Origin: Bacteroidales bacterium | GTDB lineage: Bacteria; Bacteroidota; Bacteroidia; Bacteroidales; F082 | DNA: 46,952 nucleotides | Reading direction: 5' to 3' | Assembly: GCA_015488735.1 (NCBI GenBank) | Contig: WFNG01000228.1 | Span: 1-46,952 of the forward strand | Part shown: piece after piece, positions 18,538-33,962 of the stretch | How the letters are laid out: every line of letters starts with the position of its first letter | How positions within the stretch are numbered: position 1 is the first letter of the stretch | Made by a program: the position numbers and the translations under genes | Notes under the pieces: model-generated | Database searches by the model: none | What the model saw: only the letters and a program-made list of their open reading frames with translations | Told to the model about the DNA's origin: nothing

Positions 18538-18567
18538 TTGACAAATTTTTATTTTGTTGTATCTTTG
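18538..18567 (+). promoter_or_regulatory. Promoter of the TetR / radical SAM cluster
   Basis: A -33 TTG (18538-18540, in CTTGACA) is followed after 19 bases by the -7 box TATCTTTG (18560-18567). This is the best complete Bacteroidota promoter in the window. Confidence 0.72.
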
Positions 18568-18570
18568 CAC

Positions 18571-18585
18571 GTAAGTACTTACTTA
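18571..18585 (+). promoter_or_regulatory. Candidate TetR operator (perfect palindrome)
   Basis: GTAAGTACTTAC (18571-18582) is a perfect 12-base palindrome 4 bases after the -7 box, at the expected transcription start, an ideal position for a repressor. The overlapping stretch AAGTACTTACTTA (18573-18585) matches AAGTAnTTACTnA, also found at the tauE promoter. The adjacent tetR gene makes autoregulation likely (inference). Confidence 0.6.
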
Positions 18586-18673
18586 TAAAGATAAGGAAAG
18601 ATGAAAAAAGTAATAATCGTTTGGGATGGAAAAAGAAAGATGTAAAACATAAAAAAATTTATTAATTTTTGGA

Positions 18674-18689
18674 GCAAATACTCACTTGC
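18674..18689 (+). promoter_or_regulatory. Second candidate operator in the tetR leader
   Basis: GCAAATACTCACTTGC carries outer arms GCAA/TTGC. Its ACTCACTTGC stretch resembles ACTCACCTGC right after the tauE -7 box. It lies about 38 bases before the tetR ATG. It may be a weaker site for the same regulator or its paralog. Confidence 0.35.
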
Positions 18690-18726: not shown

Positions 18727-19365
18727 ATGGAAACAATAGTAGAAAGAGCATCGGGGGCCATAAGAAGAAAGCAGATTAAACGGGCTACGCTTGAAATTAT
18801 TTCTGAGGAAGGGTTGAAAAAACTTTCCACAAAAAATCTTGCTAACCATGTACATTTGAGTGAAGGGGCCATCTTTCGCCATTTTCATTCAAAAAACGAC
18901 ATTATCCTCTCCATAGTTAATGACATTAAAGAGGATTTACTTAAACCATTACAAAAAATTGTTGAAAAACAAACCCCTCCCGATAAACGGCTGGAAGAGT
19001 TCATGTGCTTCCACGTAAACTACCTGAAAAAAAACAGTGGCGTAACCATATTATTATTTACCGAAGCAGCGTACCAAAACAGCGGATCATTGAAAAAACA
19101 ACTCAATGAAATTTTCCGCTATATCAAACAATATTTTGGCAAGATAATCCACGATGGCATTGCACTGGGACTCTGGGACAACAGTATTTCCGTAGACGCC
19201 ATCTCCACACTCTATATTGGAATTCCAATTACCATGAGTATTGAAATGAAACTGGCTCCTGAAATTTTTTCCTATCAAAATTTCTGCGGTCAGATGCTCC
19301 AATTGGTATCCCATTTGTTGGTATATCCAAAAGATAAAATAACTATTGAAAATAAAAATCTCTAA
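18727..19365 (+). CDS. TetR/AcrR-family transcriptional regulator (first copy)
   Basis: A DNA-binding repressor of 212 residues. The N-terminal helix-turn-helix spans about 20-60 ('TLEIISEEG', 'LSTKNLANHVHLSEGAIFRHF'), the TetR pattern. The C-terminal ligand domain has 'EFMCFHVNYLKKN', 'LLFTEAAYQNS' and 'SVDAISTLYIGIP'. The second regulator at 31063 shares these segments in the same order ('YICFHLEYLAKN', 'LLFSEASYQND', 'SVEDIASLYMGIP'), so the two are paralogs. The radical SAM gene follows 11 bases later, so it is the first gene of an operon. It probably senses a lipid or acyl-type ligand and represses this cluster (inference). Confidence 0.88.
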   Translation: METIVERASGAIRRKQIKRATLEIISEEGLKKLSTKNLANHVHLSEGAIFRHFHSKNDIILSIVNDIKEDLLKPLQKIVEKQTPPDKRLEEFMCFHVNYLKKNSGVTILLFTEAAYQNSGSLKKQLNEIFRYIKQYFGKIIHDGIALGLWDNSISVDAISTLYIGIPITMSIEMKLAPEIFSYQNFCGQMLQLVSHLLVYPKDKITIENKNL

Positions 19366-19376
19366 ATTTTGAAATC

Positions 19377-20834
19377 ATGAAAAGTGTAAAGCAAACAATT
19401 TTTAAAGAAGCGGTCAACCAGGTTATTTCAAATAAAATGCTGCGTGGAATAGCAGTAAAACAACTGGATAAATACTTATACAACAACTTGATGAGTATGG
19501 GTCGCGAGCAACTGGAACAGGAAAAAATGGACCAGTATGCTTTTATGACATCTATCGTAAACCAGGCCAGGAAAAACCTGGATAAAGGTTTTATCAAGCC
19601 CAAAGTAATGAAGAAAATGGCGCAGGTCTTTGTGGGCGACTCCTACACGCCAGACAGACATGCAAAACTCAGCCCTGTCAAAGAGGCATTTAAAGAAAAA
19701 TATGGTGATTATCCGCCTCAGTTTCTGGTTTTGTCTCCCGGAAAAGGATGTAACCTGCACTGTACAGGCTGCTATGCTTCGTGCGAAGCCGCTATTGCCG
19801 AAAAACTCGATTTTGAAACATCCAGACGTATCGTAAGAGAAGCACACGATATTTTCGGTAGCAAATTTATGGTTATCAGTGGTGGCGAACCGTTTATGTA
19901 CAAAGCCGATGGAAAAACTATTCTGGACCTTTTTGAAGAATTTAACGACATGTTTTTCCTCGTTTACACCAACGGAACCCTGATTAATGAAGAGATGGCC
20001 AACAAACTGGCCGAACTGGGAAATGTAACACCTGCTATCTCTGTTGAAGGCTGGGAAGAACAAACCGACGAAAGACGTGGAAAAGGCGTTTACAAACGCA
20101 TCATGAAAGCCATGGAAAACCTGCGTCATGCAGGCGTACCTTTCGGAATGTCCGTTACTTCCACCAGCCATAATGCAGAAGTCCTTCTGCAAGACGATTT
20201 TTACGAGTACTTCTTTAACGAGCTGGGCGTATCCTACATGTGGCAGTTCCAGTTAATGCCCATTGGCCGTGGTAAAGATGTGGTTGACCTGATGATTACT
20301 CCAGAGCAACGCGTAAACCTTTACAAGCAATGGGCACATTTACTGGAAGACAAACATTTTCCTATTGCCGACTTCTGGAACTCTGCCTCACTCTCCAGTG
20401 GCTGTATTGCATACGGAAGATGGAACGGTTACTTCTACATCGACTGGAACGGTAACATCATGCCTTGTGTATTTGTCCCCTACCATGTGGACAATGTTAT
20501 TGACCTCTTTAAAAACGGGAAAACACTGGCCGACGGACTGCAATCCAAAATGTTCAAAAATGGGAGAAAATGGCAAAAAGATTACGGATTTGAAAATCCG
20601 GACCACCGTGGAAATGTTCTGATGCCATGTTCCATCCGCGACCATTACAAAAACTTCAAAGAAAATATTCTGACACCCGATGCCAAAGGCGAAGACGAAG
20701 AAGCCGAAGCTGTATTACATGATCAGGAATACGAAAAAATGATGGAAGATTTTGATTCGGAACTTAAAAAGCTGACGGAAGATATTTTTAATGAGAAATA
20801 TCTGAAGAAAGAACTCACAACAGATGAAGCCTGA
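19377..20834 (+). CDS. Radical SAM protein with SPASM-like C-terminus
   Basis: A 485-residue radical SAM enzyme. The [4Fe-4S]/SAM cluster motif is Cys125-x3-Cys129-x2-Cys132 in 'GKGCNLHCTGCYASC', preceded by about 110 residues of helical N-terminus. 'VISGGEPF' is the GGE SAM-binding motif and 'YTNGTLI' the next barrel strand. The C-terminal part has further cysteines (Cys343, Cys364 in 'NGNIMPC', Cys418 in 'VLMPC'), which look like an auxiliary-cluster SPASM/twitch region. SPASM proteins often modify peptides, but several act on other substrates; no precursor peptide is seen nearby. The acidic tail is unusual. It follows tetR and overlaps the next gene by 11 bases. Substrate unknown. Confidence 0.85.
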   Translation: MKSVKQTIFKEAVNQVISNKMLRGIAVKQLDKYLYNNLMSMGREQLEQEKMDQYAFMTSIVNQARKNLDKGFIKPKVMKKMAQVFVGDSYTPDRHAKLSPVKEAFKEKYGDYPPQFLVLSPGKGCNLHCTGCYASCEAAIAEKLDFETSRRIVREAHDIFGSKFMVISGGEPFMYKADGKTILDLFEEFNDMFFLVYTNGTLINEEMANKLAELGNVTPAISVEGWEEQTDERRGKGVYKRIMKAMENLRHAGVPFGMSVTSTSHNAEVLLQDDFYEYFFNELGVSYMWQFQLMPIGRGKDVVDLMITPEQRVNLYKQWAHLLEDKHFPIADFWNSASLSSGCIAYGRWNGYFYIDWNGNIMPCVFVPYHVDNVIDLFKNGKTLADGLQSKMFKNGRKWQKDYGFENPDHRGNVLMPCSIRDHYKNFKENILTPDAKGEDEEAEAVLHDQEYEKMMEDFDSELKKLTEDIFNEKYLKKELTTDEA

Positions 20835-22011
20835 AACATTTCATAAGGTTGTTGTCAATAATGCAAAACGTGCCAGGGAATTTCTCAACTTCCCCGGCAC
20901 GCTTTACAAAACCAACAAGTACTGGATACGTCCGTTGGATGAGGAAATTGAAAAGGTTTTCAATCCTGATACCAACAAACTTTTCAGAAACGGGAAGGCT
21001 ATCCGGTGGATTTTGTTGGATAAAAACAGGCATGTTGTTGGAAGAATAGCCGCTTTTTATGATAAAAAAAGTGCTATGAAAAACGACCAGCCCACGGGAG
21101 GAATCGGCTTTTTCGATTGTATTGACAACCAGCATGCTGCCAACATTCTTTTTGATGCCGGCAAAGAATGGCTGAAAAGCAAAGGAATGGAAGCCATGGA
21201 TGGCCCCGTAAATTTTGGCGACCGCGACAATTTCTGGGGTTGCCTTGCAGACGGGTTCCAGCACGAACCGGTTTTCAATATGCCTTACAACTATCCCTAC
21301 TACAACAACCTGTTTGAAAATTACGGCTTTAAAAACTACTTTAACCAATACACTTACCACATCAACGTGCAGGGCGGCTCACAGTCACCCATTATTCGTG
21401 AGAAAGCTGCCCGCCTGCATCGCGATCCTGCTTATCATTTCGAGATCCTCAATAAGGAAAACAAAACGCGTATTGCCAACGACTTTATGGTTATTTTCAA
21501 CAAAGCATGGGCACGTTTTCCCGGGGTAAGCCGCATCCGTAAAGAGCAGGCAAAAGCCATCTTCAAAATGCTGAAGCCCATCATGGATCCACACGCTGTT
21601 GTCTTCGGTTATTACCATGACGAACCTGTTGCTTTTTACGTGATGGTTCCCGATTTGAACCAGATTATCCGGAAGTTTAACGGTAAAATAAATCTGCTGA
21701 ACAAGCTCCGGCTCATAGCAGACCTAAAACTTGTAAAAAAATGTGACCGGCTTATCGGTTTAATTTTCGGCGTAGTTCCCGAACATCAGGGAAAAGGAGT
21801 AGAATCCGCCATCGTGGTTCGATTTGAAGAAGAAATTTTTAGCGGACGCGTTAAATATACTGATTTGGAAATGAACTGGATAGGTGATTTTAACACAGGA
21901 ATGATGAAACTGGTGGAACAAATTGGTGGCACCATCCACAAAACGCATATAACTTACCGTCATCTTTTTGACCCTGCTAAAAAGTTTGAACGGGCCAAAA
22001 GAACATCATAA
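20824..22011 (+). CDS. GNAT-like acyltransferase family protein (copy 1)
   Basis: A 395-residue cytosolic protein. The C-terminal half (about 215-395) looks like a GNAT domain: 'GVVPEHQGKGVESAIV' fits the acyl-CoA pyrophosphate loop (Q/R-x-x-G-x-G/A), with 'AFYVMVPDL' as a preceding strand. The N-terminal half ('LYKTNKYWIRPLDEE', 'VGRIAAFYDKKSA', 'MDGPVNFGDRDNFWG') is a second related fold of unknown role. It overlaps the radical SAM gene by 11 bases and is followed by a paralog, so the two presumably act in one pathway. Acetyl or longer acyl transfer is a guess from the fold; the substrate is not known. Confidence 0.72.
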   Translation: MKPETFHKVVVNNAKRAREFLNFPGTLYKTNKYWIRPLDEEIEKVFNPDTNKLFRNGKAIRWILLDKNRHVVGRIAAFYDKKSAMKNDQPTGGIGFFDCIDNQHAANILFDAGKEWLKSKGMEAMDGPVNFGDRDNFWGCLADGFQHEPVFNMPYNYPYYNNLFENYGFKNYFNQYTYHINVQGGSQSPIIREKAARLHRDPAYHFEILNKENKTRIANDFMVIFNKAWARFPGVSRIRKEQAKAIFKMLKPIMDPHAVVFGYYHDEPVAFYVMVPDLNQIIRKFNGKINLLNKLRLIADLKLVKKCDRLIGLIFGVVPEHQGKGVESAIVVRFEEEIFSGRVKYTDLEMNWIGDFNTGMMKLVEQIGGTIHKTHITYRHLFDPAKKFERAKRTS

Positions 22012-22103
22012 ACAGAAAACTGCCCAAAGTAATCAGGCCATCCGGATAAATGAACAGATTAAAAAATACCGGATAGTCATTTATAATAGTAAAGACACGA
22101 ATC

Positions 22104-23297
22104 ATGGAACTGATAATGTATCATCTGGTTGAAGTGAAAACAACAAAACAGAAAGAAGCGTTTCTGCGACTGCCGGCTTTACTATATAAAATAGAAGAAG
22201 ACATAAACTGGATTAGTCCGCTATATTCTGACACCAAAAACTTTTTTAACACAAAGAAAAACCCGCTACTCAAAGAAGGCCAGGTTAACCGTTGGCTGCT
22301 TTACGATGTAAACAAACACCTCATTGGAAGAATCGCCGCTTTTTATTGGGAACGCAGCACACTCACCGAAGAAAATCCCATGGGATATTTCGGCTTTTTT
22401 GAATGTACTGACGACAAAAAAGGAGCTGCACTTCTTTTTGAAACGGTGACTAAGTGGCTGTTACTAAAAGGACTAAAAGGCATGCAGGGACCATTCCACC
22501 TGGGTGGCCCCGGATTTTTTACCGGAAGCCTTACACGCGGTTTTTTTGAACCGGTGTACGGTATGCCTTACAATTTTTCTTTCTACAACGACTTGTTTAT
22601 GGATTACGGTTTCCGTGATGTTTCAAAAACAGAAACCCTTCTCATTAAACTGGATGACTCCAACAACTGGAAATTTATCGAAAAAAAAGTCACTAATTTC
22701 TACCATGACCTGCGTTACCGTATTGAAACTTACGACCCTAAAAAACGCGGGACACTTGCAGAAGACTTTACGACCATTTTCAATAAATTTTGGACTGGCG
22801 TTCCGGGAATGACTTTAATGACAAAAGAAAGAGCTTTAAACCGTTTCAAATTTCTTCGTCCCGTGTTAGTCAAAGAAACAATAATCTTTGTCTATTTTGA
22901 CGACAAACCCATTGCCTTTTTTATTGCTGTTCCGGATATTCATCAAATCATTAAAAAGTTTAAAGGAACCTACAACCTCTTTGACCGTCTGCGCCTGTGG
23001 TTTGCCATAAATATTTTTAAAACCATTCACTGCCTGAGCGGGTTAATTTATGGTATCGATCCCGGGTTTCAGAACAAAGATCTGGAGGCTCTTCTTTTCT
23101 ATTCTTTAAAAGATCAGATTAAACAGAACAAACTGAAATACAAAATGTTGAAATTAATCAGGGTAGGTGATTTTGCTCCCGGAATAAAAAAAGTTGCACA
23201 ACAATTAGATGGAAAGGTTCACCATCGATACGTTACTTATCAGCTTATGTTTGATAAGGTTGAAAAAAAGAAAGCGGAATCAGTATCTGCCTCCTGA
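22104..23297 (+). CDS. GNAT-like acyltransferase family protein (copy 2, degenerate CoA loop)
   Basis: A 397-residue paralog of the preceding protein: same length, same order of motifs ('LYKIEEDINWISPLY', 'IGRIAAFYWERS', 'MQGPFHLGGPGFFTG', 'YGMPYNFSFYNDL'). In the place of copy 1's 'EHQGKGVES' it has 'GFQNKDLEA', so both glycines of the usual GNAT pyrophosphate-binding loop are lost. This suggests a non-catalytic partner, a different acyl donor, or another chemistry. It lies 92 bases after copy 1. An alternative start at 22116 exists four codons on. Confidence 0.7.
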   Translation: MELIMYHLVEVKTTKQKEAFLRLPALLYKIEEDINWISPLYSDTKNFFNTKKNPLLKEGQVNRWLLYDVNKHLIGRIAAFYWERSTLTEENPMGYFGFFECTDDKKGAALLFETVTKWLLLKGLKGMQGPFHLGGPGFFTGSLTRGFFEPVYGMPYNFSFYNDLFMDYGFRDVSKTETLLIKLDDSNNWKFIEKKVTNFYHDLRYRIETYDPKKRGTLAEDFTTIFNKFWTGVPGMTLMTKERALNRFKFLRPVLVKETIIFVYFDDKPIAFFIAVPDIHQIIKKFKGTYNLFDRLRLWFAINIFKTIHCLSGLIYGIDPGFQNKDLEALLFYSLKDQIKQNKLKYKMLKLIRVGDFAPGIKKVAQQLDGKVHHRYVTYQLMFDKVEKKKAESVSAS

Positions 23298-23358
23298 TGG
23301 AGGATAGCGGTTGATTCCATTTTCGGAATGTATTTTGAAAAACATAAAAGACAACAAG

Positions 23359-25041
23359 ATGAAAATTTTGCTTATTAGCCCGCAAGGGTCAAACATATAT
23401 GCCAAAATGGAAGTCGGTTTGCCACCTTTGGGGATTGCCTATTTGGCAGCCGTCATTCGTGAAAAAGGGCATGAAGTAAAAATAATCGACAAAAGTATTG
23501 AGCGAAGAGAGCTGACCGCTGCTGATTTTACCGACTTCGACCTGGTAGGCATTTCTGCCGATACTCCCCGCTATCCCGAGGCAGTAGAGATTGCCCGGGC
23601 CGCCAAAAAAGAAGGAAAAATAGTGGTTATGGGCGGTTACCATGTTACTTTTCTCGACAAAGAAGCTTTGGAAACAGGCGTGGTAGATGTCATTGTCAGA
23701 GGCGAAGCAGAAGAAATTTTTGTCAACCTCATCCATGCACTGGAAAAGAAAAAAGACTTATCCAACGTTAAGGGAATTTCGTTTGTTCGCAAAGACAAGC
23801 TGGTTCGTACAGCTATTGCGCCCCCGCCAGCCAACCTCGACACCATGCCGTTTCCTGCCCGCGATTTGCTCCCCATGGACAAATATACCAGTCAAATGGC
23901 AAGCTTACCCGTCACCAATCTGATTACCAGCCGGGGCTGTCCGTTTAACTGTTACTTCTGTTCATCTTCCAAATTCGGTGGCCTCAAATGGCGTTACCGC
24001 TCAGCAAAATCAATAGCTGACGAAATGGAAATCCTATACCATGAATACGGTTACCGGGCCTTTGCTTTTATGGATGATAATTTTACGCTCAGTAAACGCA
24101 GGGTAATGGAATTTGCCGATGAACTGGAGAAACGAAAAATGAACGACATTCTCTGGTGGTGTTTTTCCCGAATTGATATTCTCATCCGTAACGAAGATAT
24201 GGTAAAACGCATGGCCGAAGTGGGAGCCTTTCAGATCTTTTTAGGATTGGAAAGCCATAACGAACAAACACTGGACGATTATGGCAAAAACGTGGGCAAC
24301 AAAGAACAAGATCAGGCCATTAAATTACTAAATAAATACGGTATCAGCATTCACGGAAGTTTTATTGTGGGCGATATTAACGAAACCAAAGAAATGGCCA
24401 TGCAAACCGCAAAATGGGTGCAGCAGGTAAACCCGCGCGTGGCACAATTCTCTATTTTAACCCCTTATCCGGGAACGGCACTTTACCACGATGTGGAACG
24501 CGAAGGCCGGTTCCTGCACAAAAACTGGGAGTTGTACGATGCCCTCCACGCCACCGTAAAAACCGATGGCATGACCCCTGACGAGGTGCAAAAAATACTG
24601 ATTAAAGATTACCGGATGGCCTATCTTAACAAGTACAGGCTTTTCCATCCGCGAAAATTTTCACCCGAAGTAACCAAACGGCTTAAAAACCTCAATGCCA
24701 AAATGGGAGGAATGAGAAGCATTATTAAACCCTTCCAGGTGTTTGGTACTTTTTGGAGGGAAATGCAACACACCAAACCCAAAAAAATGATGGCCAAATG
24801 GGAAAAACAGAATCAGGAAACAAATACAAAAGCACTCCACCTCAAAGAAGATGATAATGTAATGGAATTACAAGATAAAATGCTGGGAGAAGCAGAAACA
24901 CATATGAATGATCATCATCAATATGAGGTACCCGGAGAGAACAAACATCCTGTCAACGGAAAAATTCATAAAAGAATAAATAATAATAAACCTGCTTCTA
25001 CAAGTGATGCACTCCCCGCGGAAAAGAAAACTACCCAATAA
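23359..25041 (+). CDS. B12-binding-domain radical SAM protein
   Basis: A radical SAM enzyme of 560 residues from the ATG at 23359 ('MKILLISPQG'); the frame is open 16 codons further upstream, but this ATG begins the domain exactly. The N-terminal domain (about 1-150) is the cobalamin-binding-like Rossmann fold ('GLPPLGIAYLAAVIRE', 'VVMGGYH') but lacks the DxHxxG cobalt-coordinating motif. The radical SAM motif is Cys194-x3-Cys198-x2-Cys201 in 'GCPFNCYFCSSSKFGG'. The family (as in HpnJ- and BchE-like enzymes) often acts on lipids, tetrapyrroles or other hydrophobic substrates. The last ~80 residues are low-complexity and charged. It begins 61 bases after the second GNAT gene and ends the first unit. 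Confidence 0.87.
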   Translation: MKILLISPQGSNIYAKMEVGLPPLGIAYLAAVIREKGHEVKIIDKSIERRELTAADFTDFDLVGISADTPRYPEAVEIARAAKKEGKIVVMGGYHVTFLDKEALETGVVDVIVRGEAEEIFVNLIHALEKKKDLSNVKGISFVRKDKLVRTAIAPPPANLDTMPFPARDLLPMDKYTSQMASLPVTNLITSRGCPFNCYFCSSSKFGGLKWRYRSAKSIADEMEILYHEYGYRAFAFMDDNFTLSKRRVMEFADELEKRKMNDILWWCFSRIDILIRNEDMVKRMAEVGAFQIFLGLESHNEQTLDDYGKNVGNKEQDQAIKLLNKYGISIHGSFIVGDINETKEMAMQTAKWVQQVNPRVAQFSILTPYPGTALYHDVEREGRFLHKNWELYDALHATVKTDGMTPDEVQKILIKDYRMAYLNKYRLFHPRKFSPEVTKRLKNLNAKMGGMRSIIKPFQVFGTFWREMQHTKPKKMMAKWEKQNQETNTKALHLKEDDNVMELQDKMLGEAETHMNDHHQYEVPGENKHPVNGKIHKRINNNKPASTSDALPAEKKTTQ

Positions 25042-25119
25042 TACCGATTATACATCAAAATGTCATACTGTTTTTTTAATAAAAATAGTTAAAAAATACT
25101 TACCAGTTTCATTATTTAA

Positions 25120-25127
25120 TACTTTTG
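25120..25127 (+). promoter_or_regulatory. -7 box for the tauE/porin unit
   Basis: TACTTTTG, 78 bases before the ATG at 25206. A TACTTAC sequence at 25097-25103 lies near the -33 zone and repeats part of the tetR operator. Confidence 0.6.
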
Positions 25128-25128
25128 C

Positions 25129-25141
25129 AAGTAATTACTCA
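25129..25141 (+). promoter_or_regulatory. Candidate TetR operator at the tauE promoter
   Basis: AAGTAATTACTCA matches the tetR-promoter element AAGTACTTACTTA at 11 of 13 bases and also lies immediately downstream of the -7 box. Its core AGTAATTACT (25130-25139) is a perfect 10-base palindrome. It suggests both units answer to the same regulator. Confidence 0.55.
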
Positions 25142-25205
25142 CCTGCTGAAATGCAGTTGTGTCAGAAAAAATTAATGTTTTTAATTTGTTGATAGAAAAA
25201 CAGTT

Positions 25206-25943
25206 ATGGATTATCTTATTTTTATTATATCATTTTTTGCATCTTTTATTTTTTCGCTCGGCGGAATAGGTGCTGCTATTGTATTGATTCCAATATTGGT
25301 TTGGTTTGGGATTCCCATAAGCACAGCAAAGCCAGTTGGTTTGTTTTACAACACGGTGAGCTTAACAGGAGCCAGCATTCATAACATTAAACACAAACTG
25401 CTCGACTTTAAGCTGGGAATTCCCATTATTGTGTTTTCATTTCTTTTTGCCATATTAGGCGCCTGGCTTACCAAATTTATCCCCTCAAAGTTTATTCTCA
25501 TCCTGTTCATTGCTTTCCTTGTCTTTTCAGGACTTATGTTCCTGTTTTTCAAAAAGAAAGAACAAGAGGAATACCGGGATGACAAACCCTGGTTTTCGCT
25601 CTCGCTTATCGGCGCTGTTGCCGGAATACTCTCCGGACTTCTGGGTATTGGCGGCGGAGGAATTATTTCTCCGTTAATGTTAATGCTGGGTTTTCACCCA
25701 AAAAAAATCACCACCATTACCGCTTTTGTAGTACCGTTTTCTTCTTTCTCCGGATTTCTAACATACTGGATGATGGGAAAAGCCGACTGGAAACTGATAC
25801 TGATTGCTTCCGTGGCCGGGGTTATGGGAGCATCGCTGGGAACCTGGTTTATGCAAAAAAATCTACAGCCCAAAACGGTTAAGAAAATCCTGGCGATTAT
25901 TTTAATTTTAATGGCTGTAAAACTCATTTTTAAAGTGATTTAA
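25206..25943 (+). CDS. TauE/SafE-family membrane permease
   Basis: An inner-membrane protein of 245 residues with about eight hydrophobic helices in two repeats: 'GGIGAAIVLIPILVWFGIP' in the first half and 'GLLGIGGGGIISPLMLMLGFHPKK' in the second, the typical duplicated TauE/SafE signature. Family members export sulfite, sulfoacetate or other small organic anions, or move sulfur compounds; the substrate cannot be set from sequence. The gene heads the second transcription unit of the TetR cluster and lies 165 bases after the radical SAM gene. Confidence 0.88.
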   Translation: MDYLIFIISFFASFIFSLGGIGAAIVLIPILVWFGIPISTAKPVGLFYNTVSLTGASIHNIKHKLLDFKLGIPIIVFSFLFAILGAWLTKFIPSKFILILFIAFLVFSGLMFLFFKKKEQEEYRDDKPWFSLSLIGAVAGILSGLLGIGGGGIISPLMLMLGFHPKKITTITAFVVPFSSFSGFLTYWMMGKADWKLILIASVAGVMGASLGTWFMQKNLQPKTVKKILAIILILMAVKLIFKVI

Positions 25944-26044
25944 AAGACACCTGATCAAGAGTATGACAGGAATAATTTATCCAAAACTATGACCAGGACG
26001 ACAACACCCGGTAAAATAAATTGAGGACAATAAAATATAAACAC

Positions 26045-27064
26045 ATGAAAACAGTAAGATATTTCCTGATAACCTTATTACTGGCTTTGATAACCTTGCC
26101 CGGCTTTGCGCAAACGCCTGCCCGCCCAACTGACAAAATAGAATGGCATGGTTATACACAATTGTGGGCAAGTACTAATTTTGACAACACTTATTCCGTT
26201 GCGTTGCGAAGGTTAAAATTCTGGATGACTTCCGGGCCTGCATTTTCCCAACACTGGTCGTTCAATGTACAGGCAATTTTTACATCTATGGGACACGAAA
26301 AATTTTTCCTCCAGAATGCTTTCGGCCAATACCGTAACAAGTCAGGGGTTTCCAGTGTACGTTTCGGACAATTTATCCCAAAATTCAGCTTGCAGTATTT
26401 CCAGCACGACTATCTGATGTCCAGTATAGAAAGAGCTAACATTATTATGGCCGGAATCCCCGATGGAACGCTTGGCGTTCGCGACCTTGGTGCTCAGTAC
26501 ACCCTGAAAGCGGCCAAAAAACATCTGGAAGTTAATTTTGGCCTGTTCAATGGGTATGGAATTAAACAATACCGGCTAAACGACGATGGCGGTTACCTGC
26601 TCACCCACAACTTATCCTACACCATCAAAAGGAAAAATGCATTGTGGAAGTTTGGCTATTCGGTCATGTTCCGGAAAGCAGTAAAACTGGAACTGAAGCA
26701 TATTCTTCCTGATTCCGTTCTGTTTTCAGGAAACGATTTTCGATACGACGTGTATGCCATGTTCAACAGTAAACATTTTGACCTGCAGGGCGAATACCTG
26801 AGTGGCTGGCTAAACGGAAACAGGTTTGATGGCTATTACGCACTGGCCACCCTTAAAGCCAATGCCAAAAACGAAGTTTATCTTTCTTATGAGAAATATA
26901 ATGATCTGATAAGTACCACAAGCAATAACCCCTGGTACATAGCTGGTTATAACTATTTAATAAAACATCACGACATAATGGTAACCCTTGACACCCGGTT
27001 CCAAAAGGACTATGGAAGACTGAATAATATTACAAGTATTCAATTTCAATTATTTTTTCATTAA
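26045..27064 (+). CDS. Outer-membrane porin, phosphate-selective O/P-like
   Basis: A beta-barrel outer-membrane protein of 339 residues with a signal peptide (first 22 residues, 'LPGFA' then Gln). The body is rich in alternating strands, such as 'LRRLKFWMTSGPAFSQHWSFN' broken by loops, and 'SVRFGQFIPKFSLQYF' resembles the OprO/OprP family. The start at 26045 is chosen because it begins the signal peptide; a TTG at 26021 would extend it without benefit. It follows the permease by 101 bases without a promoter box, so it is probably in the same transcript. It could take up or release the cluster's substrate or product across the outer membrane (inference). Confidence 0.8.
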   Translation: MKTVRYFLITLLLALITLPGFAQTPARPTDKIEWHGYTQLWASTNFDNTYSVALRRLKFWMTSGPAFSQHWSFNVQAIFTSMGHEKFFLQNAFGQYRNKSGVSSVRFGQFIPKFSLQYFQHDYLMSSIERANIIMAGIPDGTLGVRDLGAQYTLKAAKKHLEVNFGLFNGYGIKQYRLNDDGGYLLTHNLSYTIKRKNALWKFGYSVMFRKAVKLELKHILPDSVLFSGNDFRYDVYAMFNSKHFDLQGEYLSGWLNGNRFDGYYALATLKANAKNEVYLSYEKYNDLISTTSNNPWYIAGYNYLIKHHDIMVTLDTRFQKDYGRLNNITSIQFQLFFH

Positions 27065-27076
27065 ACAATTTATTGT

Positions 27077-27679
27077 ATGATTAATCCAAAAGATTGGCTC
27101 GAATTCGGGCAAAAATTTCACGGGCACAAATGTCCGGCCATGCCAAACGGCCTGAGAGTAGCCGCAGCAGCCATGAACAAACTTAATGTGGAACGTACCG
27201 GCGACAGCGACCTGCACGTTATTCTGGAGTTGGGTGAACATCACTGTGCACACTGTTTTGCCGATGGCGTTCAGGTGATAACGGGATGTACACTGGGAAA
27301 AGAAAATATCGAATCCGTTTTTATGGGCAAATGGGGACTGACACTCATTGACAAAAAAACAAACCGTGCCGTCCGGGTTACGCCAAAAGCCGAATCGATG
27401 ATGGCTTCCAAAAATACCAGGTTTTTCAATGATTACCGTATGAAAGGCGTTCCCCCCACACAGGTACCGGATGAAGTAGTGGAACCGCTTATCGAAAAAG
27501 TAATGAATACACCTGATGAAGAGATGCTTATTATCTCAGACGTATTTGAATACAAATGGAAAGAGCCTAAAGGCACATTTGCCAGTTTTGTTTGTGATGA
27601 GTGTGGTGAGATGGTGGTTGAAAAATACGGCCGCCTCAAAGGCAACAAAAAAGTGTGTATTGCCTGTGCCAACAAATAA
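27077..27679 (+). CDS. FmdE-like protein with C-terminal zinc finger
   Basis: A 200-residue cytosolic protein. The N-terminal FmdE domain shows 'FHGHKCPAMPNGLR' (14-27) and 'HHCAHCFADGVQVITGCTLGK' split by its conserved cysteines (Cys57, Cys60, Cys71), which may bind a metal. The C-terminal ribbon has Cys173-x2-Cys176 and Cys194-x2-Cys197, a treble-clef/TraR-like zinc site. The name comes from subunit E of methanogen formylmethanofuran dehydrogenase operons, but no other gene of that pathway is here; stand-alone bacterial FmdE proteins have no settled role. It starts 12 bases after the porin. Confidence 0.85.
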   Translation: MINPKDWLEFGQKFHGHKCPAMPNGLRVAAAAMNKLNVERTGDSDLHVILELGEHHCAHCFADGVQVITGCTLGKENIESVFMGKWGLTLIDKKTNRAVRVTPKAESMMASKNTRFFNDYRMKGVPPTQVPDEVVEPLIEKVMNTPDEEMLIISDVFEYKWKEPKGTFASFVCDECGEMVVEKYGRLKGNKKVCIACANK

Positions 27680-27872: not shown

Positions 27873-27990
27873 TAAAAACGTAAATAACCATAATGCATTA
27901 AAAATTAATTAATTACAACTTAATAAAACACATGAAAAATTCCGGCAGGTAAGGTTGAAAATAAAATTCATTACTTTTACCAGAACCACT

Positions 27991-27998
27991 TATTTTTG
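27991..27998 (+). promoter_or_regulatory. -7 box for the MMPL/LolA/TetR unit
   Basis: TATTTTTG followed by CAAATTATTC, 29 bases before the ATG at 28028. The sequence after the box resembles the operator motif only weakly, so I do not call an operator here. Confidence 0.55.
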
Positions 27999-28027
27999 CA
28001 AATTATTCTGTATCAAATCTGAACATA

Positions 28028-30277
28028 ATGGACCGACTGGCAAACATCATACTAAAACTTAAATGGCCTATCATTATTCTGGCTATTTTGCTAACCGGTT
28101 TTTTTGGTTATGAACTCACAAAAATAAAACTCGATTCCAATGTTATTGACTCGCTGCCGGCCAATGATTCCATTGTCTCTCTTTTTAAGGATATAGGAAA
28201 ACAATTCGGTGGTAACGAAATAGGCATGGTTATCGTAAAGTCTGACAACGTTTTTAAACCTGCCGTGCTGAAGGATGTACAACGCATTACGAAAACGCTG
28301 GGAAACCTGAAAGGCGTTACAGCAGTTACCAGCCTCACCAACATCCTTAATTTTGATGCCGTAGGAAACAATTTTCAGGTAGGCCCACTCATCAATATGA
28401 CGCGGCTTCCCCATTCAAAGGCAGGGATAGACAGCCTGAAACAGATTGTAACATCCAATAAAATGTACCGCGGAAACCTGGTTTCGTCCGATGGAAAAGC
28501 CTGTATTGTGGTGTTCAAGTTTTCGGAGGGGAGTAATGTTGGCGCTGTTGTGCGACAAGTAAAAAGTACCATTAAAAAACTCCCGTTAAAAGAAAAAGTT
28601 TATTTTGCCGGTGGTCCTTTTATCACGGCCATGGTTGCCAAAATCATATCAGAAGATCTTATTTTTCTTATCCCCATCACCTTTTTGGTCATTTCCATTA
28701 TTCTCTTCCTGAGTTTTCATTCTATCCGCGGTGTTGTACTGCCCATGCTCACAGCCGGCATGGCCATTATCTGGGCGCTGGGATGCATGCCGCTTATGGG
28801 ACTGAATATGTCTATGGTTTCCAACAACATTCCTATTATTCTTATGGCGGTGGGCAGTGCTTATACCATTCATGTCCTTAACCGCATCAACCAATGTGGC
28901 GAAAAGGATTTCCACAAAGCTGTCCGTAAGGCACTGGGGCACATTTTTGTCCCTGTCAGCCTGGCAGCACTGACCACCATGATTGGATTTGTCTCTTTCA
29001 TATTTGGTGCCTATCTGAAAATGATCCGTAACTTCGGGCTGATAACGGCACTGGGCACCTTTTTTGCCGCCCTCCTGTCCCTGTTTTTCATTCCTGCAAT
29101 ATTGATGATTTTCCCGGGAAAAGGGAAAAAGAAAAGAATTTCAAAGCCTGTAAAATCCTACCTTAACGATTATATCCTTACCCCTTTAACGACATTGGTT
29201 CTGAAGCATCCAAAATATATTTTTACTGCCTGGATTGTGCTTATCCTTATCAGCTTTGCAGGTGCTTTCTCCATACGCCGCAGTGTAGATGTGAGCGATT
29301 ACTTTCAGAAATCAAATCCCGAAAGAATTGCCGAGAATATTATGGTTCAGAAATTCGGAGGTATTAAACCGGTGTTTTTGCAATTTACGGGAAACATGCA
29401 AAGTGCAGCGGTACTGAAAACCATGAAAAAGGCACAGGATTATCTCCAAAAAAGTCCTTCCATAACCTCCACCCAATCCATTGCCAACATTATCATTAAG
29501 CTCAACGGGGCATTAACCGGAAAATATAAAATTCCTGACAGCGATGCCGCCATTGGCCAGTTGTGGTTCCTGCTGGATGGAAATTCAAATATCTCTCAGC
29601 TTGTATCGGAAAATCTGGACAAAGGAATTGTTGTGGCAAAATTTAACGGAAAAGGCAACCATGCTGCTGCAAACTTTGCAAAATACATGAAACCCTTCAT
29701 TGCCCAAAACAGCCGGCCGGGTTGTAAAATACAAATGACAGGCATGCCATTTATCAATGCCGAAATGGATCAAAGCCTGTTAAACAGTCAGATTGCCAGC
29801 CTGATTATCGCTACTATTTTTGTCATAGGTATTGTGAGCCTCATACTGTGGTCATTTACCAAAGGGTTGCTTGCCAGTATTCCCATCGCTGTTACCATCA
29901 TTATTTTGTTTGGGACCATGGGCCTTACCAACATCCCGTTAAATATGGGAACGGTACTGGTAGCCAGTATTGCCATGGGAATTGGCATTGATTATTCCAT
30001 TCATTTTATCACCCATTTTAACGATGGGTTAAAATTGGGACTTCCGGTACAGGAAGCCATAACAGCTACCATGAAAATGAGCGGAAAAGCCATTCTTATC
30101 AATTTCAGCTCCGTATCGGGAGGCTTTTTGGTACTTGTCTTTTCCAAGTTGGTACCCATGCAATATTTTGGTATATTAGTTGCATTAAGTATGCTAAGTT
30201 CCAGCCTGGGAGCACTCACCCTGCTTCCGGTAATTTTAATCATACGAAAAAGAAAACAACGTTTAAAAACTGCTTAA
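28028..30277 (+). CDS. MMPL/RND-superfamily exporter
   Basis: An inner-membrane transporter of 749 residues with the MMPL layout: a first helix at about 12-28, a periplasmic domain (30-205), a helix bundle (about 208-365), a second domain with its helix near 395-412, another periplasmic segment (about 415-590) and a second bundle to the C-terminus. Repeated RND features are visible: 'AVGSAYTIHVLNRI' in the first bundle and 'AMGIGIDYSIHFITHF' in the second, with the acidic Asp in the latter that usually relays protons. MMPL proteins export lipids, siderophores or similar hydrophobic molecules to the periplasm. The LolA-like gene begins one base after its stop, so export and periplasmic handover are likely coupled. 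Confidence 0.9.
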   Translation: MDRLANIILKLKWPIIILAILLTGFFGYELTKIKLDSNVIDSLPANDSIVSLFKDIGKQFGGNEIGMVIVKSDNVFKPAVLKDVQRITKTLGNLKGVTAVTSLTNILNFDAVGNNFQVGPLINMTRLPHSKAGIDSLKQIVTSNKMYRGNLVSSDGKACIVVFKFSEGSNVGAVVRQVKSTIKKLPLKEKVYFAGGPFITAMVAKIISEDLIFLIPITFLVISIILFLSFHSIRGVVLPMLTAGMAIIWALGCMPLMGLNMSMVSNNIPIILMAVGSAYTIHVLNRINQCGEKDFHKAVRKALGHIFVPVSLAALTTMIGFVSFIFGAYLKMIRNFGLITALGTFFAALLSLFFIPAILMIFPGKGKKKRISKPVKSYLNDYILTPLTTLVLKHPKYIFTAWIVLILISFAGAFSIRRSVDVSDYFQKSNPERIAENIMVQKFGGIKPVFLQFTGNMQSAAVLKTMKKAQDYLQKSPSITSTQSIANIIIKLNGALTGKYKIPDSDAAIGQLWFLLDGNSNISQLVSENLDKGIVVAKFNGKGNHAAANFAKYMKPFIAQNSRPGCKIQMTGMPFINAEMDQSLLNSQIASLIIATIFVIGIVSLILWSFTKGLLASIPIAVTIIILFGTMGLTNIPLNMGTVLVASIAMGIGIDYSIHFITHFNDGLKLGLPVQEAITATMKMSGKAILINFSSVSGGFLVLVFSKLVPMQYFGILVALSMLSSSLGALTLLPVILIIRKRKQRLKTA

Positions 30278-30278
30278 A

Positions 30279-31037
30279 ATGAAAAAGATAAATTTTAGCT
30301 TTCTTTTGTTGCTCGCCTGCATAACAGTCGTTCCGCTTCATCTCTTTGCACAAAATCCTGAGGATATTTTACAGAAAATGGATGCACAGGCAGCCACCAT
30401 TAAAGACAAAACGGCCAATGTGGTAATGGAAATGATTAACAACAGAACCGGCAAGGTAAAAACGCGCAAAGCCCTTTTAAAGCAGAAAATGCCTTATAAA
30501 ACACTTTTCCGGTTTACCTACCCGCCTTCACAGGCAGGGATTGGCACACTTTCTCTCCCGGGCGGTATTGTTTATCTCTACATGCCTGCTTTCGGAAAAC
30601 CAAAAAAAATATCTCAGATTGCCAACAGCGGTGCTTTCTCGCAATCTGATTTCTCCACCAAAGATATGGGCCCTAAAGACTGGGCAAAAAATTACACAGC
30701 TACTTTACTGCGTACTACCGATACCGCCTATGTCTTAAAACTCATCCCAAAAGAAAAAAGTACTGTTTATTCAAAATTGGTGGTTGTGGTCAACAAAAAG
30801 CACTTCTTCCCCGAAAGAGTTGTCTATTATAATCTAAAGGGTAAAATTATGAAAGAAGCAGACAACCAATACGAAAAAATCGGCAACCTGTGGGTTGCAA
30901 AAACAGCCTCTATGACTAACTTCCAAAAAGCCCATACCACCCGTATCATTAGTTCAAATATTAAAGTTAACCAAGGACTAAAAAGCAGCGATTTTACAGT
31001 GGAGCAGCTGGTTCCGCCTAAAAGCAGAAAGAAATAA
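30279..31037 (+). CDS. LolA-like outer-membrane lipoprotein-sorting protein
   Basis: A periplasmic protein of 252 residues with a signal peptide (about 24 residues, ending HLFA before Gln). The mature part fits the LolA-like 'outer membrane lipoprotein-sorting protein' family: 'ILQKMDAQAATIKDKTANVVMEM' split into the first helix and strand, 'KMPYKTLFRFTYPPSQAGIG' as barrel strands, and 'IVYLYMPAFGKPKKI' near the opening. These proteins form an open barrel that carries hydrophobic cargo. It lies one base after the MMPL gene; MMPL plus LolA-like pairs are a recurring arrangement for lipid or lipidated cargo export. The tetR paralog follows after 25 bases. Confidence 0.88.
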   Translation: MKKINFSFLLLLACITVVPLHLFAQNPEDILQKMDAQAATIKDKTANVVMEMINNRTGKVKTRKALLKQKMPYKTLFRFTYPPSQAGIGTLSLPGGIVYLYMPAFGKPKKISQIANSGAFSQSDFSTKDMGPKDWAKNYTATLLRTTDTAYVLKLIPKEKSTVYSKLVVVVNKKHFFPERVVYYNLKGKIMKEADNQYEKIGNLWVAKTASMTNFQKAHTTRIISSNIKVNQGLKSSDFTVEQLVPPKSRKK

Positions 31038-31062
31038 TAATTAACAAAAAATAATCAATATC

Positions 31063-31662
31063 ATGGGTAAAATAATACGCCAGTCGGGAGATATTCGCAG
31101 GGAACAAATAAAAGCAGCCGTCAAAGAGATCATCTTTTTTGAAGGAATGCAAAAACTTACTACAAAAAATATTGCTAAAAATGTAGGCATCAGCGAAGGA
31201 ACAGTATTCAAACATTTTACTTCAAAAAAGGCTATCATCAATGACATTCTGAAAGATGTGCATGAAGAAATGGTATTACCATTGCAGCAGATTGCCAATA
31301 ATGACAGGGATGCCAACACACGTCTTGAAAAATATATCTGCTTTCATTTGGAATACCTGGCGAAAAACAAAGGGATAACTATGCTGCTTTTTTCGGAAGC
31401 CTCCTACCAAAATGATGCTGATTTAAAAAAAATGCTGAGCGAAACCTATCAATTGCTGGAACAGGGTTTTGCCAAAATTGTTCAGGATGGCATTTCCGAA
31501 GGGATTTGGGACCAGGCCATCTCTGTAGAGGACATCGCCAGCCTGTACATGGGCATTCCCCTGGCCATGAATGTTGAGCTGTTACTGCAACATGAAAAAT
31601 TCAAAGAGATTAGCTACTGTAATAATATGCTGGTGTTGTTACAGCGCATTTTAAGAAAATAA
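31063..31662 (+). CDS. TetR/AcrR-family transcriptional regulator (second copy)
   Basis: A repressor of 199 residues with the TetR helix-turn-helix at about 15-55 ('QIKAAVKEI', 'LTTKNIAKNVGISEGTVFKHF') and a ligand domain closely similar to that of the first regulator ('CFHLEYLAKNKGITMLLFSE', 'QDGISEGIWDQAISVED'). It starts 25 bases after the LolA-like gene with no promoter box of its own, so it is probably in the exporter transcript. Unlike the first copy it would therefore be made together with the exporter. It likely senses a related ligand and may recognise the same or a diverged operator. Confidence 0.88.
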   Translation: MGKIIRQSGDIRREQIKAAVKEIIFFEGMQKLTTKNIAKNVGISEGTVFKHFTSKKAIINDILKDVHEEMVLPLQQIANNDRDANTRLEKYICFHLEYLAKNKGITMLLFSEASYQNDADLKKMLSETYQLLEQGFAKIVQDGISEGIWDQAISVEDIASLYMGIPLAMNVELLLQHEKFKEISYCNNMLVLLQRILRK

Positions 31663-31727
31663 TTACAGCGTCATTAAAATAGCATTCAGCTTATAAAGCA
31701 TTCTTTAACCACCTTTTTTACCAAAAG

Positions 31728-33962
31728 ATGAACAGGAAACAGCCGGGATTGTGGAAAAGCATCGGAAAAAAAATTTATTTCTTTTTCCCGGTAAGGCTGT
31801 TGTTGGGATATCTGAAAACAAACCATCTTATCCTTCTGTCGTGGCTGATTCCGTTTATGATTATTCTCAACGTTTTTGGTATTAAGTTCGGGCTGCCCTC
31901 TCTTTTTCTTGCCCCGGAGTATATGGGAAAAATAAACGGACCTGCCTTTCTGTTTCTGGGGTTGGTAACGGGTAGTTTTATCATGGCCTTTCATATTTCG
32001 TCGTATGTGGTTATGGCCCATCGCTATCCTTTTATCGCCACCGTATCCCGGCCGTTTTATATTTATGCGTTAAACAATTCTGTTATTCCGGTTGTATACC
32101 TCATAATTTATCTTTACCAGAGTTTTGGGTTTCAAACAGGTTATGAAATGATTCCTCCCGGCAAAGTCATGGTAAACTTGCTGTTTTTCCTTTCCGGGGT
32201 TCTTATATTTGTTTATGTCTCTTTTGGCTTCTTTTATTTTATGGTAAGGGTATGGCCACGCTTTGCCTCCATCGGATATTCAAAACTAAGCAAGAAAAAA
32301 GGCTTGCGTTGGATATCCCGTATCGTGGAGAAAGACAAACAACAAAAAATGCAGGAAGCCCCCAAAGAAAACCGGGGGCCATCCAAGGTGGAGTGGTATA
32401 TCAGTAGCCTGACCACCACTTCCCCATCGCTGGAATTCAGCCAATACAACAAAAGCTTTCTGACAAAAGTATTTCATCAGCAGCATAAAAATGCGTTTTA
32501 TTATGTGCTGCTCATTCTGGTTTTCATTATTGTCAGGGGAATGATAAAAGACCAGCCACAGCTGATTTTGCCGGCAGGCGCAAGTCTGCAACTTCTTTTT
32601 ACACTTATATTACTGATTACAAGTCTTTTTTATATTGTCTTCCGCAGGTGGACTTTCATGGCTGCTTTGCTGCTGCTGTTTGTCGGAAATTATATTTCTC
32701 CTTTCACCATCAACAGTTATAACGACAACGCCTACGGACTCAATTACTCCAATAAAAAGATGCCGGTAAGACCGTTAAGCCATGGTAATTTCCGCAAGGA
32801 CTCCTTAAATACAGTGAAAATATTAAACCGGTGGGCAGCAAAAAATGCTTTACCCTCCGGTGAAAAACCCAAAATGGTGATTGTCTGTTCCAGTGGCGGA
32901 GGCATGAAGCTGGCCATGTGGACCTATTACTCAATGGCTTATGCCGATAGCGTAACCCACGGGAAGCTAATGCGGCACACACAACTTTTTACGGGAGCTT
33001 CCGGGGGAATGCTGGGAGCAGCCTTTTTGCGACAGCTTTATCTCGAAAAACAACAAGGAAAGATAAAAAAGCTGCTTTCTAAGAAATACATCTCCCAAAT
33101 TACCACCGACATTCTCAATCCGGTATTTTACAGCTTTTCCATGAGCGACTGGTTTTTCAGGCTGCAACATTTCCGGTACAACGGACATCGGTATTACAAA
33201 GACAGGGCTTACATGTTTGAACAGACACTGGACCGAAACCTGGGTCCTGTTCTTGACAAACCACTCATTGCCTATCGTAAACCCGAAGAAAACGCCACCA
33301 TTCCCATGCTTATTCTTACCCCTACCATTATCAACTCGGGAAGCCGGTTAATTATCTCGCCGGTGGACGTGTCTTATCTTACCAAAGACCCTTACAGTAA
33401 ACTACTGAAGAATATTGAGTTTCGTTATAATTACCACGCTTTTGGCGCAGACAGCCTACGTTTTCTGTCTGCCATCCGCATGAATGCCAGTTTTCCTTAT
33501 GTAAGTCCCATTGTGGCTTTACCGGGAAAACCGCGAATTTCCGTTTTTGATGCAGGCCTCAATGATGATTACGGTTATTTAACCGCTTATGATTTCGCCA
33601 TGGAGTTTAAAAGCTGGATATTGCAAAATACGGGAGGACTGATTATCATCAATATTGATGAAAACGACTATCCTTTCTACGGAAAAAAGATTGACTTTAC
33701 CAGCCACCTGCTACGGCCGCTGGGAACACTCTTTTCCGATTGGCTATCCATTCAGGAAAACAATTATCTGCCAGTCATTGCTTCCCTGAAAAAAGTTTTA
33801 AACGGAAAATTTCATTTCATCAGTTTCCGTTTCGGCTCAAAAGACAAAAGGGTCTCCCTAAGCTGGCACCTTACAAAGCGTGACAAACAAATCCTTAAAC
33901 AAGCCATTTACCTTCCTAAAAATCAGCAGGAGATACAACGCCTGAACAAACTGTTGAGGTAA
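31728..33962 (+). CDS. Membrane-anchored patatin-like phospholipase
   Basis: A 744-residue protein. About 330 N-terminal residues contain several hydrophobic helices (near 35-52, 72-95, 115-132, 150-172, 258-272, 288-305, 310-325); the C-terminal ~360 residues look patatin-like. The oxyanion loop 'CSSGGGMKLAMW' is at about 387-398, the nucleophile Ser425 lies in 'TGASGGM' (G-x-S-x-G), 'MNASFPYVSP' matches the family's conserved segment before the dyad, and Asp608 lies in 'FDAGLNDDYG' (usually D-G-G/A). It would hydrolyse acyl chains of membrane lipids or lipid products. It lies 65 bases after the second tetR on the same strand, so it may belong to the cluster, but no promoter box was seen. 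Confidence 0.78.
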   Translation: MNRKQPGLWKSIGKKIYFFFPVRLLLGYLKTNHLILLSWLIPFMIILNVFGIKFGLPSLFLAPEYMGKINGPAFLFLGLVTGSFIMAFHISSYVVMAHRYPFIATVSRPFYIYALNNSVIPVVYLIIYLYQSFGFQTGYEMIPPGKVMVNLLFFLSGVLIFVYVSFGFFYFMVRVWPRFASIGYSKLSKKKGLRWISRIVEKDKQQKMQEAPKENRGPSKVEWYISSLTTTSPSLEFSQYNKSFLTKVFHQQHKNAFYYVLLILVFIIVRGMIKDQPQLILPAGASLQLLFTLILLITSLFYIVFRRWTFMAALLLLFVGNYISPFTINSYNDNAYGLNYSNKKMPVRPLSHGNFRKDSLNTVKILNRWAAKNALPSGEKPKMVIVCSSGGGMKLAMWTYYSMAYADSVTHGKLMRHTQLFTGASGGMLGAAFLRQLYLEKQQGKIKKLLSKKYISQITTDILNPVFYSFSMSDWFFRLQHFRYNGHRYYKDRAYMFEQTLDRNLGPVLDKPLIAYRKPEENATIPMLILTPTIINSGSRLIISPVDVSYLTKDPYSKLLKNIEFRYNYHAFGADSLRFLSAIRMNASFPYVSPIVALPGKPRISVFDAGLNDDYGYLTAYDFAMEFKSWILQNTGGLIIINIDENDYPFYGKKIDFTSHLLRPLGTLFSDWLSIQENNYLPVIASLKKVLNGKFHFISFRFGSKDKRVSLSWHLTKRDKQILKQAIYLPKNQQEIQRLNKLLR

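Follow-up and report, generated by a model that had tools for sequence, protein, structure and literature searches.

What do two radical SAM enzymes, two acyltransferase-like proteins and an export chain do together in one cluster framed by two TetR regulators? The question is raised by twelve open reading frames (ORFs), all on the + strand, at 18727-33962 of Bacteroidales bacterium contig WFNG01000228.1, which we analysed as a stretch of 46,952 nucleotides, here called the window. A sequence-only reading had proposed a pathway that makes, exports and turns over a modified lipid or acylated compound. We assigned families by Pfam and NCBIfam profile scans with the family cut-offs and a reporting threshold of E 0.01. 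These scans, the ORF list and the scores of orthologues bore out the gene order and families given by that reading (Table 1), as well as its claim that the first and eleventh genes encode paralogous TetR proteins, which are 48% identical over 192 residues. Our answer, to which we give an even chance, is that these genes form an anaerobe's regulon for lipid modification and export under TetR control.

By genome comparison, the conserved core of the cluster is the SPASM-type radical SAM protein. It was present at E <= 1e-60 in 11 of 119 genomes of the same family and in 17 of 295 genomes sampled from the order, and at E <= 1e-40 in 7 of the 12 genomes of the genus. The MMPL and LolA-like genes, which lie 1 bp apart in the window, were found near SPASM in eight of the 11 family genomes and on another contig continuing the set in two more (G002 and G004), making 10 of 11; in G001 only the SPASM gene was visible, on a 7.9-kb contig. 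The B12-type radical SAM gene (E <= 1e-60) occurred in seven of the 119 family genomes, all of them SPASM-positive; the two genes shared a contig in six, and in the seventh (G002) they lay on two contig ends, both of which break within GNAT2. In the order sample the B12-type gene was found (E <= 1e-80) in one genome of 295, the window's own. The composition of the remainder varied. The GNATs are missing from genome G009; G003 has no FmdE and only a piece of GNAT1; G012 has SPASM twice and a B12-type gene interrupted by an in-frame stop; G338 shows SPASM-GNAT1-MMPL-LolA on a short contig; and G352 has MMPL fragments 3' of the B12-type gene, with an intact MMPL-LolA pair further along. Judged by their absence from some SPASM-positive relatives, the GNAT pair and the TauE-porin-FmdE segment are accessory.

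The genes also share predicted regulatory sites. Position 18538, where the sequence-only reading had begun the cluster, proved to be where the TTGACA box begins in a promoter kept in five genomes, the window's among them. A pattern search gave two operator-like sites 5' of TetR1 and one 5' of TauE. With up to one mismatch, the 14-base pattern matched the window four times, against a mean of 0.44 in shuffled sequence. A 13-base version had four exact matches in the 2.88-Mb genome, three of them in the cluster's own two promoters, and the same pattern read backwards as a control had two genome-wide. The fourth exact match (contig C59) lies inside a coding sequence. What tells against these counts is that the pattern was derived from the window's own sites, so that the relatives provide the fairer test. 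The promoter and first operator were kept 5' of TetR1 in the window's genome, G002, G003, G004 and G009. With one mismatch allowed, sites were found 5' of TetR1 in loci L039 (G004), L124 (G009), L127 (G003) and L130 (G002), and 5' of TauE in L039, L125 (G009) and L129 (G002). Of three one-mismatch sites in locus L122 (G005), one lies between SPASM and TauE and the other two fall within coding sequence; L133, L134 and L128 had one each and L205 two; and none was found in L131, L135 or L123. The background rate in 37 other loci of the relatives was 10 matches in 651,709 bases. Since TauE of G009 has its own operator site even though it lies apart from the SPASM unit, TauE-porin-FmdE seem to be part of the regulon. 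Taken together, the cluster looks like a TetR-controlled regulon, and we infer that the two TetR proteins act at these sites.

To look beyond close relatives, we scanned genome contigs with a profile of the SPASM alignment, which returned at least 538 relatives, of which 80 were kept. The titles of these 80 name Bacteroidota, Planctomycetota, Calditrichia, Aminicenantes, WOR-3, Zixibacteria, KSB1, Cloacimonadota, Acidobacteriota, Patescibacteria, archaea and others, and, as far as titles show, none names a cultured strain; such labels are the submitters' own and the bins may be mixed. Six relatives (L149, L166, L172, L175, L176 and L189) lie on contigs titled Pacearchaeota, Nanoarchaeia, Altiarchaeota or uncultured archaea, and reflect either transfer or a mixture made in binning. 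The SPASM tree (44 rows) departs from the phyla, with five changes for Bacteroidota, at least three of them forced by starred branches, and one for Planctomycetota, a mismatch that falls short of proving transfer.

We then clustered the neighbouring ORFs over 87 loci, 86 with SPASM; removal of near-copies at 85% identity left 73 loci and removal of close relatives left 68. Families were counted within 4 kb of SPASM (near, 444 kb of DNA) and beyond it (far, 446 kb). Near and far counts were 26 and 4 for TetR, 13 and 3 for patatin, 8 and 0 for MMPL, 7 and 2 for LolA, 9 and 1 for GT2, 5 and 0 for GlsA-like proteins, 6 and 2 for ABC1, 3 and 1 for KASIII, 2 and 0 for phasin-like proteins and 8 and 0 for UppS, which was named by eye. 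Several loci hold longer runs. Two near-copies, L190 and L194, read TetR-GNAT-SDR-KASIII-patatin-GT2-GT2-acyltransferase-SPASM-UppS, L177 reads TetR-hydrolase-GNAT-MMPL-LolA-DUF1302-SPASM, and L187 reads TetR-GNAT-SPASM-MMPL-LolA-DUF1302. Pfam scans of these neighbours covered only the SDR, KASIII, patatin, GT2 and acyltransferase of L194, the DUF1302 of L209, the ABC1 of L192 and the hydrolase of L177; the L194 acyltransferase exceeded the cut-off for the lyso-glycine-lipid O-acyltransferase GlsA (266 against 260 bits), and the L194 patatin is RssA-type. In L205, from Bacteroidota, SPASM, a B12-type gene (269 bits), a TetR (182 bits) and an FmdE (65 bits) lie within 13 kb. Because SPASM is sometimes accompanied across phyla by MMPL, LolA, patatin, acyltransferases, KASIII and glycosyltransferases, a lipid product is indicated.

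Further observations weigh against this reading. Families unenriched near SPASM (near and far) were GNAT (1 and 4), SDR (1 and 4), DUF1302 (4 and 5), ABC transporter (2 and 4), B12-type (1 and 1) and FmdE (0 and 1). The counted families were themselves chosen for their frequency in the same loci, so that the contrast describes them and is no test, and the loci are not independent: seven of the eight UppS loci are Planctomycetota. Only 14 of the 68 foreign loci have, within 9 kb, at least two lipid-type families that run in the same direction; the other 54, many on short contigs, have no multi-gene lipid neighbourhood. TetR lies directly 5' of SPASM in only 14 of 64 foreign loci. Among close relatives, MMPL (E <= 1e-60) is present in 41 of the 119 family genomes, mostly without SPASM, and the exporter is therefore not specific to the cluster; G005 has SPASM-TauE-porin-FmdE-MMPL-LolA-TetR2 without GNATs, B12-type enzyme, patatin or TetR1; and G003 has an intact GNAT2 but only 33 residues left of GNAT1. 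Finally, the nearest folds of the SPASM model are those of peptide-modifying enzymes. The comparison on which the sequence-only reading had staked itself, whether the genes stay together across genomes, thus came out in its favour for SPASM, the B12-type gene and MMPL-LolA, but not for the full set, found in the same genus only, for the accessory GNATs and TauE-porin-FmdE, or for the 54 foreign loci with no multi-gene lipid neighbourhood.

The SPASM enzyme itself bears directly on the choice between lipid and peptide. Its SPASM domain scored 19.5 bits, under the Pfam cut-off of 21.5, but the SPASM/twitch motif, CxxxCxxC followed by C-terminal cysteines, is present, and C125, C129, C132, C343, C364 and C418 are invariant in 44 sequences; the protein also has an N-terminal helical extension of about 110 residues. 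A model built from the 44 sequences, with a predicted local distance difference test score (pLDDT) of 91.2, had SkfB, SuiB and anSME as its nearest fold neighbours (Z 23-24.5), followed by ChlB, BlsE and viperin-like enzymes, and profile comparison with SkfB gave E 7e-17. By itself the modelled fold would favour a peptide substrate. One would then have a pathway for a ribosomally synthesized and post-translationally modified peptide (RiPP), in which SPASM matures the peptide, the B12-type enzyme methylates it, the GNATs acylate it and MMPL/LolA export the lipopeptide, and the peptide-modifying folds at Z 20-24.5, together with the SkfB profile match, speak for such a pathway. However, the five genomes compared share no small ORF in the promoter gap, and the recurrent cross-phylum partners of SPASM are lipid-type enzymes; we consider a RiPP pathway quite unlikely. 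No precursor peptide was conserved in that gap in the five genomes, the whole genome not having been searched for precursors; three other gaps, examined in the window alone, contain ATG ORFs of 13-28 amino acids. A lipid-acting radical SAM enzyme has precedent in Tes, which can act on membrane lipids (PMC8941075). The SPASM model matched the tetraether synthase fold (Tes/GDGT-MAS, PDB 7tol and 7tom) with Z 17.7 and a root-mean-square deviation (rmsd) of 3.5 over 247 residues; RiPP maturases, anSME and viperins all rank higher, and the profile match to Tes (E 1.3e-5) is confined to positions 113-248, the common radical SAM core. We put at even odds that the gene company outweighs the fold and that the substrate is a lipid.

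Neither radical enzyme reached an NCBIfam equivalog cut-off. Their best scores nevertheless raise a tetrapyrrole or cofactor pathway, since NirJ2 (84 bits), mycofactocin and AhbD are the top-scoring models for SPASM and BchE (239 bits) is that for the B12-type enzyme; these scores are far under the cut-offs of 500 bits for NirJ2 and 481 bits for BchE, the other ten genes have no recognised tetrapyrrole-related family in Pfam or NCBIfam, and the lipid-type partners of SPASM recur across phyla, which makes such a pathway very improbable. Control of RND export by TetR proteins is common, which speaks for a stress-relief regulon: the TetR proteins would sense amphiphiles such as free fatty acids or antimicrobials, MMPL-LolA, porin, TauE and patatin would remove or repair damaged lipid, and the radical enzymes and GNATs would detoxify the same compound. 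Consistent with this, the cluster of G003 includes an ABC-2 permease (65 bits) and genes that by eye resemble HlyD and TolC, G009 has a TolC-MFP-RND-like set (by eye, the HlyD match being under the cut-off), and TauE of G009 lies beside arsenic-like genes (by eye). Biosynthetic KASIII, SDR, GT2 and GlsA-like genes accompany SPASM in some foreign loci, however, and we regard stress relief as unlikely.

The B12-type enzyme exceeded the Pfam cut-offs for the B12-binding and Radical_SAM domains and scored 183-239 bits with HpnR/HpnJ/BchE-type models, whose architecture it shares. Identity with the anaerobic cyclase BchE was rejected, as were HpnR (193 against a cut-off of 650 bits), HpnJ (183 against 577.6) and HpnH (42 against 225). 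A search of the source genome, 94.6% complete, gave no match to squalene-hopene cyclase (PF13243). We rejected a hopanoid reading because of these sub-cut-off scores and the lack of a cyclase match, which also makes hopanoids unlikely as substrates. On contig C155 the genome does carry a PF13444 gene of OlsB/GlsB type and a GlsA gene (271.7 bits) that is truncated at the contig end, so aminolipids are possible substrates.

For GNAT1 and GNAT2, which are 37% identical, neither Pfam nor NCBIfam gave a match at E 0.01, including the GlsB/OlsB N-acyltransferase domain PF13444, and only chance-like NCBIfam matches appeared up to E 10; a PHROGs search gave no GNAT match. A model of GNAT1 from 10 sequences (mean pLDDT 82.9) had a tandem GNAT fold, with glucosamine N-acetyltransferase as the best structural match (Z 19.2, rmsd 4.5 over 291 residues) and mycothiol synthase at Z 18.8 and rmsd 3.4 over 277 residues. 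One loop of this fold binds the CoA pyrophosphate. Its glycine was present in all 48 distinct other sequences compared, GNAT1 included, and is replaced by D, N, E and N in the four GNAT2 orthologues. The GNATs are thus paired paralogues as the sequence-only reading had claimed, but one partner has lost a residue that the other members compared retain. The remnant GNAT1 of G003 argues against a strict pair, and we consider an obligate GNAT1-GNAT2 partnership weakened. In the GNAT tree, for which the midpoint root is a guess and long branches call for caution, GNAT1 falls in a clade otherwise without the cluster among the loci examined and GNAT2 in a long-branched clade of four sequences (stem 1.67); a further deep clade unites GNATs from six foreign SPASM loci (two being near-copies) with three more GNATs encoded by the window's genome. 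Because foreign and window GNATs lie in separate clades, GNATs seem, from this tree, to have been recruited to SPASM genes more than once. A GNAT1-family gene occurs in 55 of 60 relatives, and only 3 of 40 loci around such matches show the cluster; GNAT1 was therefore rejected as a neighbourhood marker, and its use as a query, which the sequence-only reading had recommended, did not succeed. A tandem GNAT pair of a distant clade also occurs elsewhere in the same genome (L075, contig C126 of G000, 21358-23571), separated by one gene from a pair of genes that look PlsC-like by eye.

The nearest described analogue known to us of the window's MMPL-LolA pair is the ApeL/ApeM/ApeN export chain of the aryl polyene gene cluster (PMC8253772). 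There too an RND-type exporter and a LolA-like chaperone accompany genes for a lipid-anchored product, and the acyltransferase and glycosyltransferase genes of the foreign SPASM clusters recall ApeD and ApeJ. The window cluster differs in lacking the ketosynthase set, acyl carrier protein (ACP), dehydratase and thioesterase, its core being two radical SAM enzymes: among the twelve genes the exporter and LolA-like carrier are present and polyene-building genes are absent. Pfam and NCBIfam scans gave no ketosynthase, ACP or terpene cyclase among the twelve, in agreement with the sequence-only reading, although some foreign SPASM clusters carry KASIII. In the GlsB-GlsA and OlsB-OlsA routes to aminolipids, GNAT-type N-acylation precedes O-acylation (PMC11631085). 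A GlsA-like acyltransferase is shared by foreign SPASM clusters (one was scored), but the cluster GNATs lack PF13444, and the genome's own genes for that route lie on C155.

From these results we propose a sequence of steps for the lipid-modification and export regulon. SPASM would be the committing enzyme, generating a carbon-centred radical on a lipid carrier (acyl, N-acyl or isoprenoid) and not on a peptide. A second change, either methylation or ring formation, may be made by the B12-type enzyme. GNAT1 could N-acylate an amine of the product, and GNAT2 may be a relic or a partner that has lost CoA binding. MMPL would lift the product, a lipid perhaps of N-acyl or glycolipid type, out of the inner membrane, and the LolA-like protein would carry it across the periplasm towards the outer membrane. 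Porin, TauE and FmdE may serve a linked small-anion or thiol step, and the patatin may hydrolyse spent or mis-made lipid. The two TetR proteins would repress the promoters until an acyl ligand accumulates. The lipid make-and-export pathway of the sequence-only reading therefore gains from the shared operators and from the radical SAM and MMPL-LolA company in relatives, while its modified lipid is still only suggested by the genes. A broader proposal is more tentative, and we think it rather doubtful: that the SPASM proteins are an undescribed, horizontally spread family acting on lipids, not peptides, at the heart of a lipid or glycolipid pathway found under TetR control in many phyla, to which lineages independently recruited GNATs, patatins and MMPL-LolA and to which the window adds a B12 step and a GNAT pair, one without CoA binding.

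Table 1. Positions in the window of the cluster genes and predicted regulatory sites
Feature	Position	Strand	Evidence or remark
Promoter, TetR1-SPASM unit	18538..18568	+	TTGACA 18538-18543, TATCTTTGC 18560-18568; kept in 5 genomes including the window's
TetR-type operator 1 (predicted)	18569..18584	.	Palindrome GTAAGTACTTAC, directly 3' of promoter
TetR-type operator 2 (predicted)	18674..18687	-	About 40 bp 5' of TetR1 start; similar site in G002, G003
TetR1 regulator	18727..19365	+	TetR_N 38 bits, cut-off 24
SPASM-type radical SAM enzyme, core gene	19377..20834	+	Radical_SAM 83 bits; alignments; model pLDDT 91
GNAT1, tandem-GNAT acyltransferase with CoA-loop glycine	20824..22011	+	11 bp overlap with SPASM gene
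GNAT2, fast-evolving paralogue without CoA-loop glycine	22119..23297	+	In-frame ATG at 22104 also possible
B12-binding radical SAM enzyme, BchE/HpnR/HpnJ-like	23359..25041	+	Under every family cut-off; ORF opens 23311
Promoter box 5' of TauE	25117..25128	+	TAATACTTTTGC, read from sequence
TetR-type operator 3 (predicted), 5' of TauE	25131..25144	-	Also 5' of TauE in L039, L129, L125
TauE/SafE transporter	25206..25943	+	163 bits, cut-off 32.6
Outer-membrane porin, OprO/P-like	26042..27064	+	L129 orthologue Porin_O_P 38.2 bits, cut-off 20.9
FmdE-like protein with TraR zinc finger (FmdE + zf-dskA_traR)	27077..27679	+	107 bits, cut-off 22.9
MMPL (RND-type) exporter	28028..30277	+	163 bits, cut-off 20.5
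LolA-like periplasmic carrier	30279..31037	+	LolA_like 141 bits, cut-off 30
TetR2 regulator	31063..31662	+	TetR_N 36 bits, cut-off 24
Divergent patatin-like lipase, hydrophobic N-terminal part	31728..33962	+	Invariant motifs; orthologue Patatin scores

For some genes in Table 1 the assignment required orthologues or left alternatives. The GNAT2, B12-type and porin genes have TTG/ATG alternatives as start codons. The window porin and patatin had no Pfam match even at E 10; one of four porin orthologues scored over the Porin_O_P cut-off, and two of four patatin orthologues reached 31.1 bits, over the Patatin cut-off of 27.7, with a third at 25.8 bits and the fourth giving none. The patatin motifs GGG, GASGG and DAG are invariant across six aligned orthologues, and searching the PDB with the patatin alignment yielded nothing usable. 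MMPL scored 258 bits over nearly its full length with the HAE3 transporter subfamily TIGR00921, under its cut-off of 351.9.

Several neighbouring genes were noted in passing. In G009 (L125, contig C2, 1404-4190) TauE-porin-FmdE adjoins ArsR, arsenate reductase, ACR3-type permease and OsmC-like genes (by eye), and the TauE segment may be connected with the chemistry of arsenic or sulfur. The G009 TolC-MFP-RND-like set (L124, 6446-11904) lies between MMPL and LolA, and the G003 ABC-2, HlyD- and TolC-like genes (L240, contig C443, 3714-8474) lie between the B12-type gene and porin-TauE. In Planctomycetota (L151, L153, L155, L156, L160, L164 and L170) SPASM lies near UppS-like and mostly CdsA- or PgpA-like genes (by eye), and some Planctomycetota loci encode a conserved protein of about 835 residues with no Pfam match over the cut-off (L155, 7256-9760). 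Phasin-like small proteins and UbiB/ABC1-type kinases recur beside SPASM in L192, L199, L201 and L204; the one phasin-like protein scanned fell just under the Phasin cut-off. In the window itself, a 740-residue ORF at 37916-40138, beyond RecG, had no Pfam family at E 0.001.

The sequence-only reading had not recognised the cluster as a described system, and we came to the same view: a search of open-licence papers gave, among the matches listed and as judged by titles and abstract openings, no description of it. The parts belong to known families, and the combination of genes and the lipid company of SPASM appear to be undescribed. If the lipid-modification and export regulon is real, these uncultured and probably anaerobic microbes would make a class of membrane or exported lipid that lipid surveys would not recognise, and the SPASM gene, the B12-type enzyme and the operators would be gene targets for finding the product. 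The radical chemistry of SPASM-domain enzymes would then extend from peptides and cofactors to lipids.

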